A stretch of DNA of 64,000 nt from Pseudomonadota bacterium (lineage in GTDB: Bacteria; Pseudomonadota; Gammaproteobacteria; Burkholderiales; Burkholderiaceae_C): contig JAVHYA010000013.1 of assembly GCA_031119395.1 (NCBI GenBank), positions 1 through 64,000 on the forward strand. The letters run 5' to 3'. Both the position numbers and the translations under genes were made by a program. The notes beneath the pieces were generated by a model. That model saw nothing but the letters and a program-made list of their open reading frames with translations, did not search any database and was not told the origin of the DNA. Below are positions 44,127-63,349 of this stretch, one piece after another; the stretch's first letter is position 1, and each line of letters begins with the position of its first letter.

Positions 44127-44516
44127 ATGCAGGGCCTGCACCTCACCGCCGACCTCCACGACTGCCAGTGCCAGGCGCACTGGCTCGTCGATGCCGAGGC
44201 GCTCGGCGCCCGTTGCACGGCCGCGGTGCGCCACGCCGGCCTGCAGCCCGTGGGCCAGCTCTTCCACCGCTTTCCCGACACGGCCGAGGGCCCGGGCGGC
44301 GTGACGGCGACCGTGCTGCTGGCCGAATCGCACCTGTGCGTGCACACCTGGCCGGAGCGGCGCGCCGTGACGCTGGACGTCTATGTGTGCAACTTCGGCG
44401 GCGACCATTCCGCCCGGGCCCGGCAGCTGCTCGAGACGCTGGTGGCGCTGTTCGCCCCGCGCGAGGCGGTGCGCCAGTCCCTGCAACGCGGCCAGGTTCC
44501 GGTGCATGCCGGCTGA
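44127..44516 (+). CDS. speD: S-adenosylmethionine decarboxylase proenzyme
   Basis: [36 protein letters not shown] (Glu-Ser cleavage site). Confidence 0.93.
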
Positions 44517-56387: not shown

Positions 56388-57002
56388 ATGAGCACACGCA
56401 CTCCCTCCCGATCGATCGCCCTCGCCGCCGCACCGGCCCGCCAGGCCGCCCTGCGCCGGCGCGTGGCACTGTCCGCCCTGGCCGGGGCGCTGCTGTGCGG
56501 CGCGGGCTGGCTGGCCGCCCCGCGTGCCGAGGCGGCCGAGCCCGCCGTCCTCGCGGCCGTTGCCGCACGCGCCACCCTGCCGTTGGCCGAGGCGATCGCC
56601 AGCGTGGAAAAGAGCGCTGCGGGTCGCCTGGTCGAGGCGGAACTGGAAGACGATCGCACCGACGCGCAGGGCGCGCCGCTGTACGAGATGGCGCTGGCCA
56701 CGCCGCAGGGCCAGCGTGAGGACCTGATGGTCAGCGCCGCCACGGGCCAGGTCGTCAGCCGCAAGGCGGACGGCGCGCTCAAGCGCAAGGAGGCCGACCG
56801 GCTGAAGGCCGCCACGCTGGCGATGCCGCAGGCCGTGCGCACGGCGCTGGAGCGCCAGGGCGGGCGCGCGGTCAAGGCCGAGCTGGACAGCCACTTCGGC
56901 ACGGTCGTCTACGAGGTGGAGATCCTCACGCCGCAGGGCACCCTCGCCGAGGTGAAGGTGCATGCAGGCAACGGGCAGATCGTGAGCGTGGCCGGCAAGT
57001 AG
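56388..57002 (+). CDS. PepSY domain-containing secreted protein
   Basis: N-terminal signal; LPLAEAIASVEKSAAGRLVEAELEDDRTDAQGAPLYEMALATPQGQREDLMVSAATGQVV (PepSY). Confidence 0.85.
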   Translation: MSTRTPSRSIALAAAPARQAALRRRVALSALAGALLCGAGWLAAPRAEAAEPAVLAAVAARATLPLAEAIASVEKSAAGRLVEAELEDDRTDAQGAPLYEMALATPQGQREDLMVSAATGQVVSRKADGALKRKEADRLKAATLAMPQAVRTALERQGGRAVKAELDSHFGTVVYEVEILTPQGTLAEVKVHAGNGQIVSVAGK

Positions 57003-57084: not shown

Positions 57085-58737
57085 TCAGGCGGCCGAGCCC
57101 GCCAGATGCCCGCGCGTGAAGGCCTCTTCGAAGATGGAGTAGCCGGCCCAGTCGGCATGCGCGAAGCTCAGCCGCCCGGCGACGGGCGCCGGTTGCTCCT
57201 CTCCCGACCGCTGCTCGCGCCCGTGGGACGGGCGCAAATGGCCGATCTGGCTCAACAGTCCGGGGACAGGCATCGCCATCGCGTGGCCATAGCGCGTGAT
57301 GTCGATGCGCGTGGCGAGCCGCGGCAGGTCGGGATGCGGCACCGACAGCTCGGCCAGCAGTTCGTCGCGCCAGGCGCTCCAGGGTGCATCGAGCAGGCGC
57401 CGGCGCCCCTCGGCCGCGGTGGCGCCGTCGAAGCCGCTGGGACCGAGCGGCCGGTACCAGCTGAGCACGGTGGCGCGCGGCGTCGGGTCCAGCGTCTGGT
57501 GGCGCGCATCGACGTAGCCCAGGCCGCGCGTGCCGTAGACGACGTTGTCCCAGCTCGGCGCGGCGCCGGGCCGGTCCTGCAGCGGGGCGCGCAGGTGCAC
57601 GTTGGCCACCAGCCACGGCGCGTATTGCAAGCGGGCGGCGGCCTGCCGCAGGAAGTCCGGCGCCTGCGCCACCACGCGGGCGGCGATGAAGGCGGGCAGG
57701 GCGACGATGCAGCGCTCGGCCTGCCAGCGCACGACGCGCCGCGTGGCGGCATCCCAGGCGTCGACCTCCACCCCGTGCCGGCCCTCGGCGATGCGCAGCA
57801 CCGCATGGCCGGTGCGCAGGCGGTCGCCCAGCGGCGCCGCCAGGCGCTGGGTGAGCCAGCCGTTGCCCTCGGGCCAGGTGAGGACGGCGTCGCGCTCGCC
57901 GCCGTCGGCGCCCGGGTCGCCGGGCGGATGGAAGCCGTGCCGGCTCGCGAAGTAGTGGATGCCGGCCCAGGCCGACACGTGCGCGATGCCGGCGCCGTAG
58001 TCGTCGCGGCAGCAGTAGTCGAGGTACCAGCGCAGCTGCGCATCGCTCAGCCCTTCGCGGTCGAGCCAGGCGGCGAAGGGTTCGGCATCCAGCGCCCGCG
58101 CGACGGCCATCGCGTCGGCCGTGGCGGACGCGCGGAACGCGGGGATGGTGAAGTGCGCCTCGCGCTGCAGCGCGTCGACGCGGCGGCCGAAGCGCTGGTA
58201 CTGGTCCAGCGTGGCGGCGCCCACGCCCTGCAGGGGCAGCAGGCCGTCCTGCCACTCGCCGCGGAAGAAGAGCCGTTCCTGCGGGCTGTGGCACAGGTGG
58301 CGCTCGTCGTACTCCCAGCGGCCGGCGACGCGGCGGCGCAGGCCCAGTTCCTCGAGCAGGTCCTGCACCTCGTGGGCCGGGTCGGAGGGTGTCGGCAGGT
58401 AGTGCGCGCCCAGCGGGCAGGCGATGCCGTGCACCCGGCCGCCGCGGGCGTTGCCGCCGGCGCCGTCTTCCAGCTCGAGCAGCACGAAGTCCTCCGTCCC
58501 GCCCAGGCGCAGCGCCCGTGCCGCAGCCAGCCCGGCCACGCCGCCGCCGGCGACGACCACGCGCGTGCGGCGTGTTTCGGCCGGCACGGCACCGCGCCCC
58601 GCGCCGTCGCGCCACGCATGGCCGCGTCCGACGTCGATGCCGGTGAAGCCGCCGTCGATGGGCGGGCCCGACTCGCAGCCGGCCAGCGCCAGCGCGCCGG
58701 CGGAGGCGCCGATGAAATCGCGGCGGCGCAACGTCAT
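57085..58737 (-). CDS. FAD-dependent amine oxidase-like oxidoreductase
   Basis: RVVVAGGGVAGLAAARALRLGGTEDFVLLELEDGAGGNARGG; C-terminal FAHADWAGYSIFEEAFTRGHLA. Confidence 0.87.
   Translation of the reverse strand: MTLRRRDFIGASAGALALAGCESGPPIDGGFTGIDVGRGHAWRDGAGRGAVPAETRRTRVVVAGGGVAGLAAARALRLGGTEDFVLLELEDGAGGNARGGRVHGIACPLGAHYLPTPSDPAHEVQDLLEELGLRRRVAGRWEYDERHLCHSPQERLFFRGEWQDGLLPLQGVGAATLDQYQRFGRRVDALQREAHFTIPAFRASATADAMAVARALDAEPFAAWLDREGLSDAQLRWYLDYCCRDDYGAGIAHVSAWAGIHYFASRHGFHPPGDPGADGGERDAVLTWPEGNGWLTQRLAAPLGDRLRTGHAVLRIAEGRHGVEVDAWDAATRRVVRWQAERCIVALPAFIAARVVAQAPDFLRQAAARLQYAPWLVANVHLRAPLQDRPGAAPSWDNVVYGTRGLGYVDARHQTLDPTPRATVLSWYRPLGPSGFDGATAAEGRRRLLDAPWSAWRDELLAELSVPHPDLPRLATRIDITRYGHAMAMPVPGLLSQIGHLRPSHGREQRSGEEQPAPVAGRLSFAHADWAGYSIFEEAFTRGHLAGSAA
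57194..57255 (+). repeat. Dispersed ~65-bp repeat, copy j, inside the FAD oxidoreductase CDS
   Basis: tgctcctctcccgaccgctgctcgcgcccgtgggacgggcgcaaatggccgatctggctc. Confidence 0.7.
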
Positions 58738-58744
58738 CGGGCGC

Positions 58745-60328
58745 TCAATGGGTGACCCCGACCTTGCCCCACTCCTGCTCGTAGGTCGTGACCAGCACCT
58801 GGTTCGACAGCCGGTTGACCTCGGCCGGCACGCGGGCCATGTCCCTGGGAAAGTCGAAGAGCAGCGGCACGGTGTCGGCCGAGAGGAAGCGCAGGCCGGC
58901 GGGCAGCGCCTCGGGCCGCCGCCAGGGCCGGTGGCTGGCGATGACGTAGCCCCACTCGCCGAAGCTCGGCACGTGGGCGTGGTAGGGCGTGGCGACGAGG
59001 CCGACGGACTCGATGGTCTGCGCCACGGTCCAGAAGCTCTTGCGCGCCACCAGCGGCGAGGTGGTCTGGATCACCGCATAGCCGCTGGCGGCCAGGCGGC
59101 GGTCGAGCAGCGCATAGAAGCTGTTGGTGTACAGCTTGCCGATGGCGAAGTTGGTGGGGTCGGGGAAGTCGACAACCACCACATCGAAGGTGTCGTCACC
59201 CTCCTGCAACCACTTGAACGCATCGGTGTTGACGATCCTGACCTTGGGCGACGACAGCGCATGCCCGTTGAGCGCGGCCAGCGTCTCGTGCCCGGCGAAG
59301 AGCCTCGTCATGTTCGGGTCGAGTTCGACCAGCGTGACCGACTCGACCGAGGGGTACTTCAGGATCTCGCGCACCGCCATGCCGTCGCCGCCGCCGAGCA
59401 CGGCCACCTTCTTGGGCGCGCCATGCGCGGCCATGACGGGGTGCACCAGCGCCTCGTGGTAGCGGTACTCGTCGCGCTCGGCGAACTGCAGGTTGCCGTT
59501 GAGGAACAGCCGGTGCCCGGCGCTGCCGCGCGTGACGACGATGCGCTGGTAGGGCGAGGTGGCGGCGAAGACGATGCGGTCCTGGTAGAACCTGTCTTCC
59601 GCCAAGGTCGTGATGCGGTCGGCGAAGGCGAAGGCAGCCGCCAGTGCGGCCAGCGTGAGCACGCAGGCCACCGCATGTGCGCCGAGGCGCCGCAGCTCGT
59701 GCCGGAACAGCCACAGCGCCCAGGCGCCCACGGCGGCGTTCATCAGGCCGAAGAGCAGTCCGGTGCGGATCATGCCCAGCTGCGGCACGAGCAGCAGCGG
59801 AAAGGCCACCGACACCGCCAGCGCGCCGAGGTAGTCGAAGGTCAGCACCTGAGAGACCAGGTCCTTGAGCACGATGTCGCGCCTGAGGATGCGCATGACC
59901 AGCGGGATCTCCAGCCCCACCAGCGTGCCGACCACCACCACGAGGCCGTACAGCAGCAGGCGGAAGGCGCCCGGCACGTAGGCGTTGGCGATGAAGAGCA
60001 GCGCCGGCAGGAAGCCGCCGACGAGCGCGACCATGAGCTCGATGCGCAGGAAGTGCGCGGGCAGCTGGCGCTCGAAGTAGCGCGACAGCCACGAGCCCAC
60101 CCCCATGGCGAAGAGGTAGGTGCCGATGATGGTGCTGAACTGCAGCACCGAGTCGCCGAGCAGGTACGAGCTCAGCGCTGCTGCGCTCAGTTCGTACACC
60201 AGCCCGCAGGCGGCGACGACGAAGACGCTGGCGAGCAGGGCGATGGCGACGGGAGAAGGGCCGGCGCGGTGGACGGGTGCGGCAGGAAGCGCGGCCGCAT
60301 CGATCGGCGGCGCGAGGGGTTCGTTCAT
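58745..60328 (-). CDS. Membrane-anchored polyamine aminopropyltransferase (spermidine synthase-like, N-terminal TM region)
   Basis: N-terminal multi-TM; KVAVLGGGDGMAVREILKYPSVESVTLVELDPNMTRLF; DTFDVVVVDFPDPTNFAIGKLYTNSFYALL. Confidence 0.93.
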   Translation of the reverse strand: MNEPLAPPIDAAALPAAPVHRAGPSPVAIALLASVFVVAACGLVYELSAAALSSYLLGDSVLQFSTIIGTYLFAMGVGSWLSRYFERQLPAHFLRIELMVALVGGFLPALLFIANAYVPGAFRLLLYGLVVVVGTLVGLEIPLVMRILRRDIVLKDLVSQVLTFDYLGALAVSVAFPLLLVPQLGMIRTGLLFGLMNAAVGAWALWLFRHELRRLGAHAVACVLTLAALAAAFAFADRITTLAEDRFYQDRIVFAATSPYQRIVVTRGSAGHRLFLNGNLQFAERDEYRYHEALVHPVMAAHGAPKKVAVLGGGDGMAVREILKYPSVESVTLVELDPNMTRLFAGHETLAALNGHALSSPKVRIVNTDAFKWLQEGDDTFDVVVVDFPDPTNFAIGKLYTNSFYALLDRRLAASGYAVIQTTSPLVARKSFWTVAQTIESVGLVATPYHAHVPSFGEWGYVIASHRPWRRPEALPAGLRFLSADTVPLLFDFPRDMARVPAEVNRLSNQVLVTTYEQEWGKVGVTH

Positions 60329-60431
60329 GGCAAGGGCCTCAGCCGTTCGGGCCGGGCCTGTCCCAGGCCCTGGCACGGCGCTTCGACGGGCTCAGCGTGG
60401 ACGGCGGTGGGGCAACAGGCGCGGCCCGCCG

Positions 60432-60653
60432 TCAATGGATCGCTGCGGCGACGATGATGCTGATGCCCAGGCACATGGCAGCCACCACCATGGCCAGCGC
60501 CTTGTTGTGCTTCTCGACGATCTCGCCCCACAGGTCATACGGGGTGATCTTGTCGATGACGATGAAGGCGATCCAGAAGATCGCCACGCCGATCAGGGCA
60601 TACAGCAAGGTGCCCAGGATCGCCATCGGCTGGAGCCATTCGATTTTCGGCAT
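60432..60653 (-). CDS. DUF350 family membrane protein
   Basis: MPKIEWLQPMAILGTLLYALIGVAIFWIAFIVIDKITPYDLWGEIVEKHNKALAMVVAAMCLGISIIVAAAIH. Confidence 0.88.
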   Translation of the reverse strand: MPKIEWLQPMAILGTLLYALIGVAIFWIAFIVIDKITPYDLWGEIVEKHNKALAMVVAAMCLGISIIVAAAIH

Positions 60654-60692
60654 GCGGTCTCTCCGGTAGGTGGTTGGGGTGTGCGCGGGGCG

Positions 60693-62195
60693 CTACTTGT
60701 GGCCGCCGCCGCTCGAGTAGCCGCCGTAGGAGCCGCCCGAGCTGCGGTAGCCGCTGCCCGAGGAGCTCGAGCAGGTGGACAGGATGATCAGCAGGATGAT
60801 GATCACGACGACGATGAGGATGATGGTGCCGCAGCCCAGGCTGGACGCGGCGCTCACGGGCAGCGCATCGGTGCGCTTGAACATGTCCTTCTTCGCATCG
60901 AGCTTGAAGGCCGACGCCACGGCGTTGCTGTCGATGCGGCTGCCGTAGGACCAGGTCAGCTCGTTGGCGCTGCGCTCCATCGACAGCAGGCCGCCCTTGG
61001 GCTCGCCGTAGTCGCGGTTGCTGGTTTTCTGCCCGCGCTGGACCTGCCAGTAGAACTCGCCGGCGACGTAGGTGGTCTCGGCCTCGTAGGCGTACTGCTG
61101 CCTGTAGACACGGCCCAGGTAGCGGGCGGTCTGCCCGCCGTCGGACACCACCGGCGCGCCGGTCGCGGGCTTGACCATGCTCCAGCCGTCGCTCGCGTCG
61201 ACCAGGAAGCTGAAGCCGCGCTTCCTGTTGTAGAGCAGGTACTCGTCCCAGCCGAAGTGCTCGTCGTCGCCGGGCTCCACGCCCATGCGGTGCTGGAAGC
61301 CCACCACCTGCCACTGCGCGCCCTGCAGCGTGCCGAGCGAGCCCAGCGCGATGAGCGGCTGCACCGGCTCGTTCTGCGTCGCGTACTTCAGCTCGCCGCC
61401 GATGCCGCTGCTGGTGTCGATGATGCTCTTGCACGACGGGCAGGTGATGCTCTTGCTGTCGGCGAAGTTGAGCGTGACCGGGGAGCCGCAGTGGGGGCAG
61501 GCGAAGCTGCGGCCCTTCTCCTCCTTGGCGGATTCGTCGCGCAGGCCGGCCATCTTGAGGTCGTCCAGCTCGACGGAGCGGCCCAGGTACGCCGTGGGCG
61601 GCGCCGAGTCGTGGTCCAGGCTCAGCACCAGGCCCTTCTCGTTGCGCAGCTCGACGACGCGGAAGGGCTTGCCGAGCTCGGGCAGGCGCGGGAGTTCGCC
61701 CTGCGCCGACACCAGCTTCACCTCCTCGTTGGAGGCGACCGTGTAGCCCTGCCCGTTGATGGTGTGGGTGGCGCCCAAGCGCAACTGGTCGGCGGGCGGC
61801 GCGGGCTGCTGCAGCGCATAGGGCAGCGAGAAGACGTAGGCGCCGTTGTCCTCGCTCAGGACGCCGGTGCGGTCGTCGGTGCCGTCGATCTGCGCGATCC
61901 ATTCGGTCCAGCGCCCGCCCTCGTAGGCGTACTGCAGCCGGCCGACGAGGGTGAAGGCCTTGTCCTGGATGCGGCCGGTGGCGAACAGCTGCAGCGGGCT
62001 GAAATCGTCGAACAGCTCCGCCATCTTGCCGATGCGCGCGAGCTGCTCGCCCTGGCGCACGACGGTGCTCTGGCAGTACGGGCAGACGGCGAAGGCCGAC
62101 TGCGCCGAGCGGAACTCGACCGGCGCCCCGCAGCCGGGGCAGGGGGCGCTGTACGTGCGCTGGGGAGACGGCGGGGTGCCGCCCGCCTCAGCCAT
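60693..62195 (-). CDS. DUF4178 domain protein with two zinc ribbons, TM segment and Gly/Ser-rich tail
   Basis: CPGCGAPVEF...CPYCQSTV and CPHCGSPVTLNF...CPSCKSII; tail GSGYRSSGGSYGGYSSGGGHK. Confidence 0.85.
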   Translation of the reverse strand: MAEAGGTPPSPQRTYSAPCPGCGAPVEFRSAQSAFAVCPYCQSTVVRQGEQLARIGKMAELFDDFSPLQLFATGRIQDKAFTLVGRLQYAYEGGRWTEWIAQIDGTDDRTGVLSEDNGAYVFSLPYALQQPAPPADQLRLGATHTINGQGYTVASNEEVKLVSAQGELPRLPELGKPFRVVELRNEKGLVLSLDHDSAPPTAYLGRSVELDDLKMAGLRDESAKEEKGRSFACPHCGSPVTLNFADSKSITCPSCKSIIDTSSGIGGELKYATQNEPVQPLIALGSLGTLQGAQWQVVGFQHRMGVEPGDDEHFGWDEYLLYNRKRGFSFLVDASDGWSMVKPATGAPVVSDGGQTARYLGRVYRQQYAYEAETTYVAGEFYWQVQRGQKTSNRDYGEPKGGLLSMERSANELTWSYGSRIDSNAVASAFKLDAKKDMFKRTDALPVSAASSLGCGTIILIVVVIIILLIILSTCSSSSGSGYRSSGGSYGGYSSGGGHK

Positions 62196-62220
62196 GGGCA
62201 GCGCACACCGGCACGCGCCG

Positions 62221-62289
62221 GCATTTCGAACGTTTTGAGGCCGCAGCGCCCGTCCCGCGGGCGCGGACCGCTATCGAAAACATAGCAGC
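62221..62289 (-). repeat. Dispersed ~65-bp repeat, copy k
   Basis: Reverse complement: ggctgctatgttttcgatagcggtccgcgcccgcgggacgggcgctgcggcctcaaaacgttcgaaa. Confidence 0.8.
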
Positions 62290-62296
62290 CGACGGC

Positions 62297-63349
62297 TCAG
62301 ACGAGCTTCTTGAGCAGCTCGGCCTTCTTGGCGTCGAACTCTTCCTGCGTGAGGATGCCCTTGGTCTTGAGCTCGCCGAGCTTCTCGAGCGTGGCCATGA
62401 CCTCGTTCGGGCTCACGGTGGCGGCCGGCGCGGTGGCGGCGACGGCAGCTTGCGCGGCGGCGTTGGGATTCAGGCCCTGCTGGAGGTTCTGCGCCAGCAC
62501 CTGGCCCAGCGCCACGCCGGCGCCCAGCCCCATCGCGTCGCCGGCGATGCCGCCGCCCTGGCCCGCACCCTCGGCGAACTTGGGGATGGCCTGCGCCGTC
62601 TGGTACTGCATGAACTTGCCCATGTCGTTGCCGACCATGCCCATGCCGATCTTCTGGTCGAGGATCTTCTGCAGTTCCTCGGGCAGCGAGACGTTCTGGA
62701 CGGTGATGGTCTCGAGCTGGATGCCGAGCTTGCCGAACTCGGGGTTCAGCTGCGCCGCCAGCGCCTTGGCGAACTCGATCTGGTTGGCCGCCAGGTCGAG
62801 GAAGGGCACGCCGCTGGCCGCGATGGCGGTGCTGATGTTCTGCAGCACCAGGCCGCGCAGCTGGCCGTCGAGGTCGGCCACGGTGTAGGTGTCGCGCGTG
62901 CCCGAGATCTCGGTGTGGAAGAGCTTGGGGTCGGCGATGCGGAAGGCGTAGTTGCCGAAGGCACGCAGCCGCACGGCACCGAAGTCCTTGTCGCGGATGG
63001 TGATGGGCTGCGGCGTGCCCCACTTCTGGTCGACCTGCTGGCGCGTGCTGAAGAAGTAGACGTCGCTCTTGAAGGGCGACTCGAAGAGCTTGTCCCAGTT
63101 CTTGAGGTACGTGAGGACGGGCAGGGTCTGCGTCGTCAGCTTGTACATGCCGGGACCGAAGACGTCGGCCACCTGGCCTTCGTTGACGAAGACGGCCTTC
63201 TGCGACTCGCGCACGGTGAGCGAGGCGCCGTTCTGGATTTCCATCTCCTGCATCGGGAAACGCCAGGCGAGCGTGCCGTCGCCGGTTTCCGTCCACTGGA
63301 TGATGTCGATGAACTGCTTCTTGATGAAATCCATCAGGGCCATGTCCAC
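62297..63349 (-). CDS. SPFH domain protein with C-terminal SHOCT-like domain (YdjI-like)
   Basis: MALMDFIKKQFIDIIQWTETGDGTLAWRFPMQEMEIQNGASLTVRESQKAVFVNEGQVADVFGPGMYKLTT; tail LEKLGELKTKGILTQEEFDAKKAELLKKL. Confidence 0.92.
   Translation of the reverse strand: MDMALMDFIKKQFIDIIQWTETGDGTLAWRFPMQEMEIQNGASLTVRESQKAVFVNEGQVADVFGPGMYKLTTQTLPVLTYLKNWDKLFESPFKSDVYFFSTRQQVDQKWGTPQPITIRDKDFGAVRLRAFGNYAFRIADPKLFHTEISGTRDTYTVADLDGQLRGLVLQNISTAIAASGVPFLDLAANQIEFAKALAAQLNPEFGKLGIQLETITVQNVSLPEELQKILDQKIGMGMVGNDMGKFMQYQTAQAIPKFAEGAGQGGGIAGDAMGLGAGVALGQVLAQNLQQGLNPNAAAQAAVAATAPAATVSPNEVMATLEKLGELKTKGILTQEEFDAKKAELLKKLV

Follow-up and report, generated by a model that had tools for sequence, protein, structure and literature searches.

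Among the polyamine-linked envelope-stress operons described so far is a variant that lacks PspA: instead of the CesT/PspA dyad it has a band-7/SHOCT protein, accompanied by a polyamine oxidase, SpeD, DUF350, DUF4178 and a transmembrane (TM) fusion of a spermidine synthase-like enzyme, TM-SpeE (Ravi et al., 2024, mSystems, PMC11237479). Here we analyse an operon of this kind at 57085-63349 in the first 64,000 nt of contig JAVHYA010000013.1 (assembly GCA_031119395.1); this whole stretch is called the window below, and the genome examined comprises 5.14 Mb. The operon is a member of the class published by Ravi et al. (2024), and the variant is not new; what is new here is that TM-SpeE, judging from its sequence family, appears to act at the outer face of the cell membrane. 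Its five genes, all on the minus strand and separated by gaps of 101, 39, 55 and 7 nt, are listed in order of transcription, together with SpeD:

62297-63343, minus strand: SPFH/Band_7_1 protein with a C-terminal SHOCT domain (62312-62392); Pfam Band_7_1 5.7e-79, SHOCT 1.9e-08; found in 76 of 80 related loci
60693-62195, minus strand: DUF4178 protein; Pfam DUF4178 matched twice (5.4e-32), AlphaFold2 (AF2) model and hydropathy
60432-60653, minus strand: minimal DUF350 protein of 73 aa, a single 2-TM hairpin unit; Pfam DUF350 3.8e-14, half of the model
58745-60376, minus strand: TM-SpeE, membrane aminopropyltransferase; NCBIfam NF002956 (PRK03612) 9.4e-207, full length
59627-60253, minus strand: seven TM helices of TM-SpeE (AF2), predicted N-terminus in, C-terminus out
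58928-59593, minus strand: spermidine-synthase (SpdSyn) domain of TM-SpeE
57085-58737, minus strand: flavin adenine dinucleotide (FAD) protein of the amine-oxidase family; Amino_oxidase 1e-17, NAD_binding_8 7e-11; twin-arginine translocation (Tat) signal and lipobox at 58675-58737
44127-44516, plus strand: SpeD, S-adenosylmethionine (AdoMet) decarboxylase class 1b, 129 aa; AdoMet_dc 4.6e-24 (genome search), 1e-24 (protein search)

An earlier note on this DNA had described five co-directional minus-strand genes of these families with 7 nt in the last gap, all of which the Pfam and NCBIfam matches and the coordinates confirm, and had linked them to polyamine-associated envelope-stress loci of the phage shock protein (Psp) type, in agreement with the published class. 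It missed the Tat signal and lipobox of the FAD protein, nor did it point out the SpeD gene, which the window also contains at a distance of 12.6 kb. Its suggestion of a PspA-independent variant stands, as PF04012 has no match anywhere in the genome, which sets the locus apart from the Psp system with its PspA/IM30, and such a variant is already in print (PMC11237479). The statement that the assembly is not worked out is correct for the chemistry; for the gene assembly and the variant it has been overtaken by Ravi et al. (2024).

Compared with the published PspA-lacking variant, the window shares band-7 plus SHOCT, DUF350, DUF4178, a 7TM-SpeE and a SpeD in the genome, and its FAD protein is a putative counterpart of the polyamine oxidase; it differs in a band-7 protein for which hydropathy shows no 2TM segment, a SpeD 12.6 kb off on the other strand, a DUF350 reduced to a single 2-TM unit, and a DUF4178 protein in which the domain is doubled and two zinc ribbons and a C-terminal TM are present. 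The Shewanella-type operon, comprising a lipoprotein, an 8TM DUF350, TM-SpeE, the PspA dyad, DUF4178 and a ribbon-helix-helix (RHH) gene (PMC11237479) and resembled by loci L172-L177 of our survey, has in common with the window the TM-SpeE family, DUF350, DUF4178 and an exported lipoprotein, but possesses PspA and DUF2170, lacks SPFH and the FAD enzyme, and carries a long, multi-unit DUF350. In E. coli, yjfIJKLMC (YjfJ PspA-like, YjfL DUF350, YjfC peptide-spermidine ligase) likewise combines DUF350 with a polyamine enzyme, although the latter is an ATP-grasp ligase instead of an aminopropyltransferase, YjfL spans about two DUF350 units, and DUF4178 and SPFH are missing. Fusions of a major facilitator superfamily (MFS)-like N-terminal part to a SpdSyn domain, linked to AdoMet decarboxylase and DUF350, resemble TM-SpeE itself. 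Such fusions reportedly have no spermidine synthase activity and fail to replace E. coli speE, their hosts are said to lack spermidine, and thousands of bacterial genomes reportedly carry an AdoMet decarboxylase together with a membrane SpeE fusion. To our knowledge, neither the 2019 Biochem J study of Li et al. nor Ravi et al. puts the catalytic domain in the periplasm.

Predicted orientation of TM-SpeE and predicted export of its partners

Family-averaged hydropathy of TM-SpeE gives exactly seven peaks, and the AF2 model accordingly has seven membrane helices ahead of the SpdSyn domain (pLDDT 71.9, pTM 0.60), within the limit that our AF2 models were built on Comamonadaceae alignments only. 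Lysine and arginine (K/R) cluster in loops 2, 4 and 6, with a mean of 8.1 compared to 2.0 in loops 1, 3 and 5, and the even loops exceed the odd ones in all 41 homologues. The seventh helix, TM7, is as hydrophobic as the others, averaging 2.00 and exceeding 1.4 in 39 of the 41. Together, K/R-rich even loops and an equally hydrophobic TM7 point to an N-terminus inside and a catalytic domain outside. The catalytic core is furthermore nearly free of cysteine, as expected of a periplasmic domain: 0.07% of residues compared to 1.35% in soluble SpeE, which served as the baseline (Mann-Whitney p=2e-10, a value overstated since the sequences are related). Fusions of 13-TM MFS-SpeE type (850-1150 aa; L213-L223), intended as a cytosolic control, themselves proved to have an odd helix number and were then counted as support; they display 13 peaks with the same charge alternation in 11 of 11 sequences, and nine of the 11 contain no cysteine at all in the ~375-388 residues after TM13. 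Both families look like an MFS-type bundle of 6 or 12 helices with one extra helix added, leaving the enzyme outside, and a TM-SpeE catalytic domain on the periplasmic face of the inner membrane is thereby supported by sequence statistics.

The FAD protein begins with MTLRRRDFIGASAGALALAGC, a Tat signal with a lipobox. Twin arginine (or Arg-Lys) recurs in 74 of 75 orthologues and the lipobox in 70 of 75; distant members retain the twin arginine, some of them having no lipobox. We strongly predict that this flavoenzyme is exported, and expect it at the periplasmic face. Its best PDB relatives are MAO-B and putrescine and polyamine oxidases (1e-4 to 1e-3). A polyamine-like product made on the cytoplasmic side and then modified by the oxidase, as one may read the earlier note, is not supported, given an oxidase with a strongly predicted export signal and an aminopropyltransferase domain predicted to be periplasmic. 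Exported partners are not particular to FAD-type loci: a lipoprotein family of ~310-390 aa (f9), with a canonical lipobox in 10 of 12 members and one member (L177) without a Pfam match, adjoins DUF350 in PspA-type loci (L168, L170-L177, L183) and is probably the lipoprotein that Ravi et al. call Ctha_1186. The recurrence of an exported partner in FAD-type and many PspA-type loci fits chemistry on the outer face.

Active site of TM-SpeE

Alignment of 41 membrane SpeEs with 17 usable soluble SpeEs indicates that TM-SpeE is a live aminopropyltransferase with a changed acceptor pocket. The residues of spermidine synthase that bind decarboxylated AdoMet (dcAdoMet) and the catalytic Asp residues are all kept, with the Asp of GGGDG, Tyr306, His307, Asp353, Asp385, Asp403 and Asp406 invariant in 41 of 41 membrane sequences. 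A second set, Phe298, Pro405, Ser440, Ala444, Phe472, Trp475 and Gly476, is invariant in the membrane family and differs or varies in soluble SpeEs. The acceptor side is thus non-canonical: position 472 is Phe in 41/41 membrane enzymes and Tyr (IPTY motif) in 17/17 soluble ones, Pro405 stands in place of Thr, and Ala444 in place of mostly Gln or His. Since Thermus 1uir likewise has Phe at this position, Phe472 taken alone is still compatible with a polyamine acceptor. For aminopropylation of other substrates, Ravi et al. (2024; PMC11237479) cite Li et al. (2019), their reference 89. A Glu-to-Lys acceptor switch, drawn from a single pairwise alignment, was dropped; that position is not conserved among soluble enzymes.

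TM-SpeE is the only SpeE above the family cut-off in the genome, and SpeD is the sole AdoMet decarboxylase match. The SpeD gene is not part of the operon: it is encoded on the plus strand, at a distance of 12.6 kb, next to a nucleotidyltransferase-like open reading frame and the gapA/tkt region. Among the 80 related loci, 25 have a SpeD gene on the strand opposite to the cluster within ~10 kb of flanking sequence, and in other members of the operon class it is near or inside the operon. Its position outside the operon but in the genome therefore weakens identity of gene content, not class membership. The family assignment is observed, and SpeD is the probable source of dcAdoMet.

Conservation and operon architectures

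Related loci were taken as the best 80 among the matches listed, essentially all of them from Comamonadaceae. The order SPFH-SHOCT, DUF4178, DUF350, TM-SpeE, FAD is kept on a single strand in 74 of these, with per-gene identities of 56-100%, so that the five-gene unit proposed in the earlier note is indeed conserved. Most of the remaining six are truncated contigs, and two carry the block without FAD in the stretch examined. Flanking genes are seldom kept (PepSY in 2/80, amidase in 4/80, LysR in 8/80, half of the LysR matches being just 26-35% identical); a divergent malic-enzyme gene is retained in 61/80. As conservation on the side away from the malic-enzyme gene does not extend to PepSY, amidase and LysR, we delimit the conserved unit as 57085-63343, and because gene order persists in 74/80 loci while the flanks do not, a chance grouping is excluded. 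The closest named relatives of the window TM-SpeE belong to Xenophilus-type Comamonadaceae, at 95-96% amino-acid identity (L041-L043), and the organism is close to Xenophilus aerolatus. The PepSY-domain gene (56388-57002, plus strand) and the FAD gene converge; the two are neighbours in just 2 of 80 related loci, so that PepSY is left out of the unit.

In about eight loci, mainly of Acidovorax and Comamonas types, SPFH-DUF4178-DUF350 stands several kb away from SpeE-FAD (split loci include L100, L102, L104, L113, L114, L118, L119, L186 and L188), and the same separation recurs in genomes G202, G263 and G649. As split loci keep both blocks, the two can part without loss of either. At family level, 83 of 151 genomes sampled carry DUF4178, at class level only 4 of 184.

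A wider sample of 398 Pseudomonadota genomes contains NF002956 above the family cut-off in 44. Within 10 kb of TM-SpeE, these 44 carry DUF350 in 41, DUF4178 in 27 (by Pfam; more when the divergent gamma form f6 is included), PspA in 18, SpeD in 16, the FAD gene in 15 and Band_7_1 in 13. The FAD gene lies near TM-SpeE in every one of the 15 genomes that possess it, and in none of the 44 does it occur together with a local PspA (Fisher p=4.6e-5, uncorrected for kinship among genomes). Several architectures occur: that of the window; a beta version with SpeD-DUF4178-SPFH opposite a SpeE-FAD pair; a gamma version that combines lipoprotein, DUF350, SpeE, DUF2170, PspA and DUF4178 with a small protein (f8), which may correspond to the RHH gene of Ravi et al.; and an alpha-type arrangement with separate DUF4178 genes, DUF350 and SpeE. 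The survey agrees with the account of Ravi et al. (2024).

Proposed mechanism and alternative explanations

We lean, by a little, towards reading the locus as a Comamonadaceae example of the PspA-lacking band-7/SHOCT operon variant with a periplasmic aminopropyltransferase mechanism. SpeD would make dcAdoMet in the cytosol, the MFS-like 7-TM half of TM-SpeE would carry or expose it across the inner membrane, and the periplasm-facing domain would aminopropylate an envelope amine other than free putrescine. The Tat-exported FAD lipoprotein may then oxidise the product or a competing amine at the periplasmic face. On the cytosolic side, the SPFH-SHOCT protein, the tail-anchored DUF4178 protein and the DUF350 hairpins, probably oligomerising, would form a scaffold filling the place that CesT/DUF2170 and PspA may hold in other lineages, and the net effect would be an envelope stabilised under membrane stress. 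In its general form, in which the 7-TM and 13-TM aminopropyltransferases are both extracytoplasmic, the MFS-like part brings dcAdoMet out into the periplasm, and an amine of the envelope there receives the aminopropyl group before a flavoprotein exported by Tat oxidises it, we regard the proposal as evenly balanced.

A number of points weigh against this mechanism. The AF2 model of TM-SpeE is of medium quality and carries no membrane orientation, and a PDB fold search with it, dominated by matches to the SpdSyn domain, was uninformative on the membrane half. The positive-inside rule and cysteine depletion are statistical indicators; the operon's own SPFH protein, thought to be cytosolic, is by eye also without cysteine, and the first segment past TM7 is not K/R-poor (K/R 2.98 vs Asp/Glu 3.56). 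We know of no AdoMet-type donor in the periplasm, and the mechanism further depends on a putative transport of dcAdoMet through the 7-TM domain. Ten of the 44 TM-SpeE genomes have no PF02675 match for SpeD. Regarding class membership, the text of Ravi et al. gives the band-7 protein of the variant two C-terminal TMs, none of which are seen in the window protein by hydropathy.

In the main rival, TM7 would not cross the membrane and the aminopropyltransferase domain would stay in the cytosol, modifying a substrate of the inner leaflet, for instance a lipid headgroup; the membrane half would then flip the product, as in MprF-like synthase-flippases, and the periplasmic FAD enzyme would act on it after flipping. 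This has the advantage that dcAdoMet originates in the cytosol, where SpeD resides, and the fusion of a transferase to a transporter-like membrane part, termed a 7TM transporter-like fusion by Ravi et al. (PMC11237479), suits a make-and-flip design. It would need, however, a TM7 that stays out of the bilayer despite being as hydrophobic as its neighbours (mean 2.00; >1.4 in 39/41); K/R-rich loop 6 is placed in the cytosol, so that a crossing TM7 puts the domain outside, the domain is nearly cysteine-free, unlike soluble SpeE, and the odd helix count is repeated in the 13-TM relatives. We consider a cytosolic transferase with flipping unlikely, though the strongest of the alternatives.

Less probable again is a plain membrane-anchored synthase of spermidine or a related polyamine, with the polyamine oxidase serving turnover and the other genes as passengers. 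The sole SpeE over the family cut-off and a single SpeD in the genome, the complete retention of dcAdoMet-binding and catalytic residues, and membership of an NCBIfam aminopropyltransferase equivalog family are all what such an enzyme would show. Set against these are an acceptor side that is systematically altered (Tyr to Phe at 472, Pro405, Ala444, Phe298), the company of DUF350 in 41/44 genomes and the predicted export of the oxidase. The reported failure of related fusions to replace E. coli speE, and the reported absence of spermidine in their hosts, likewise speak against it. Finally, an anti-phage defence role or another kind of accessory island is suggested by the stress-related character of SPFH and Psp-type neighbours and by a PADLOC mad2 profile that matches the Rossmann part of SpeE (1.6e-14); yet that match spans a generic methyltransferase-like fold only, no other component has a convincing defence-model match, and the locus is highly syntenic across Comamonadaceae, with the malic enzyme gene alongside. 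We reject this last reading as very improbable.

Should the catalytic domain be periplasmic, product searches among cytosolic polyamines have targeted the wrong compartment, and candidate targets would be lipids, lipopolysaccharide, peptidoglycan, lipoproteins and periplasmic diamines. An enzyme on the outer side could also explain the lack of ordinary spermidine synthase behaviour, and the extracytoplasmic reading, if true, would represent transfer of an AdoMet-derived group outside the cytosol.

Partner proteins and gene starts

No signal peptide and no TM segment were detected in the SPFH-SHOCT protein (maximum 19-residue hydropathy 1.38). The DUF4178 protein contains two CxxC...CxxC ribbons, at residues 19-41 and 233-255, and its AF2 model is all-beta with a C-terminal helix (pLDDT 77.7); compared with the PDB, this fold has no significant match, the weak ones being CYTH/TTM-like at E about 0.1. 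Its parts are, all on the minus strand:

62073-62141, minus strand: zinc ribbon 1
61569-61979, minus strand: DUF4178 copy 1
61431-61499, minus strand: zinc ribbon 2
60930-61346, minus strand: DUF4178 copy 2
60783-60839, minus strand: C-terminal TM, followed by a Gly/Ser tail

DUF350 of the window is one 2-TM repeat unit, half of the Pfam model. A hidden Markov model of this single unit finds four copies ~71 aa apart in several relatives of 279-284 aa (L163, L166, L169, L179, L182), two to four copies, some weak, in relatives of 298-309 aa, and, in E. coli YjfL (132 aa), a strong copy plus a weak one; other betas have full-model, two-unit DUF350 matches in frames of ~140-215 aa. On the simplest reading, the single unit acts as a homo-oligomer and is fused as two or four units elsewhere. 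This one/two/four-unit series predicts an oligomeric membrane assembly, in the window a tetramer.

An Rfam scan of the locus returned no match, and promoter and terminator scans gave signals at or near chance and were uninformative. The start of TM-SpeE is ambiguous between GTG 60376 and ATG 60328. For the SPFH gene, the start is most likely ATG 63343 rather than GTG 63349, because homologues begin with MALMDFIKK.

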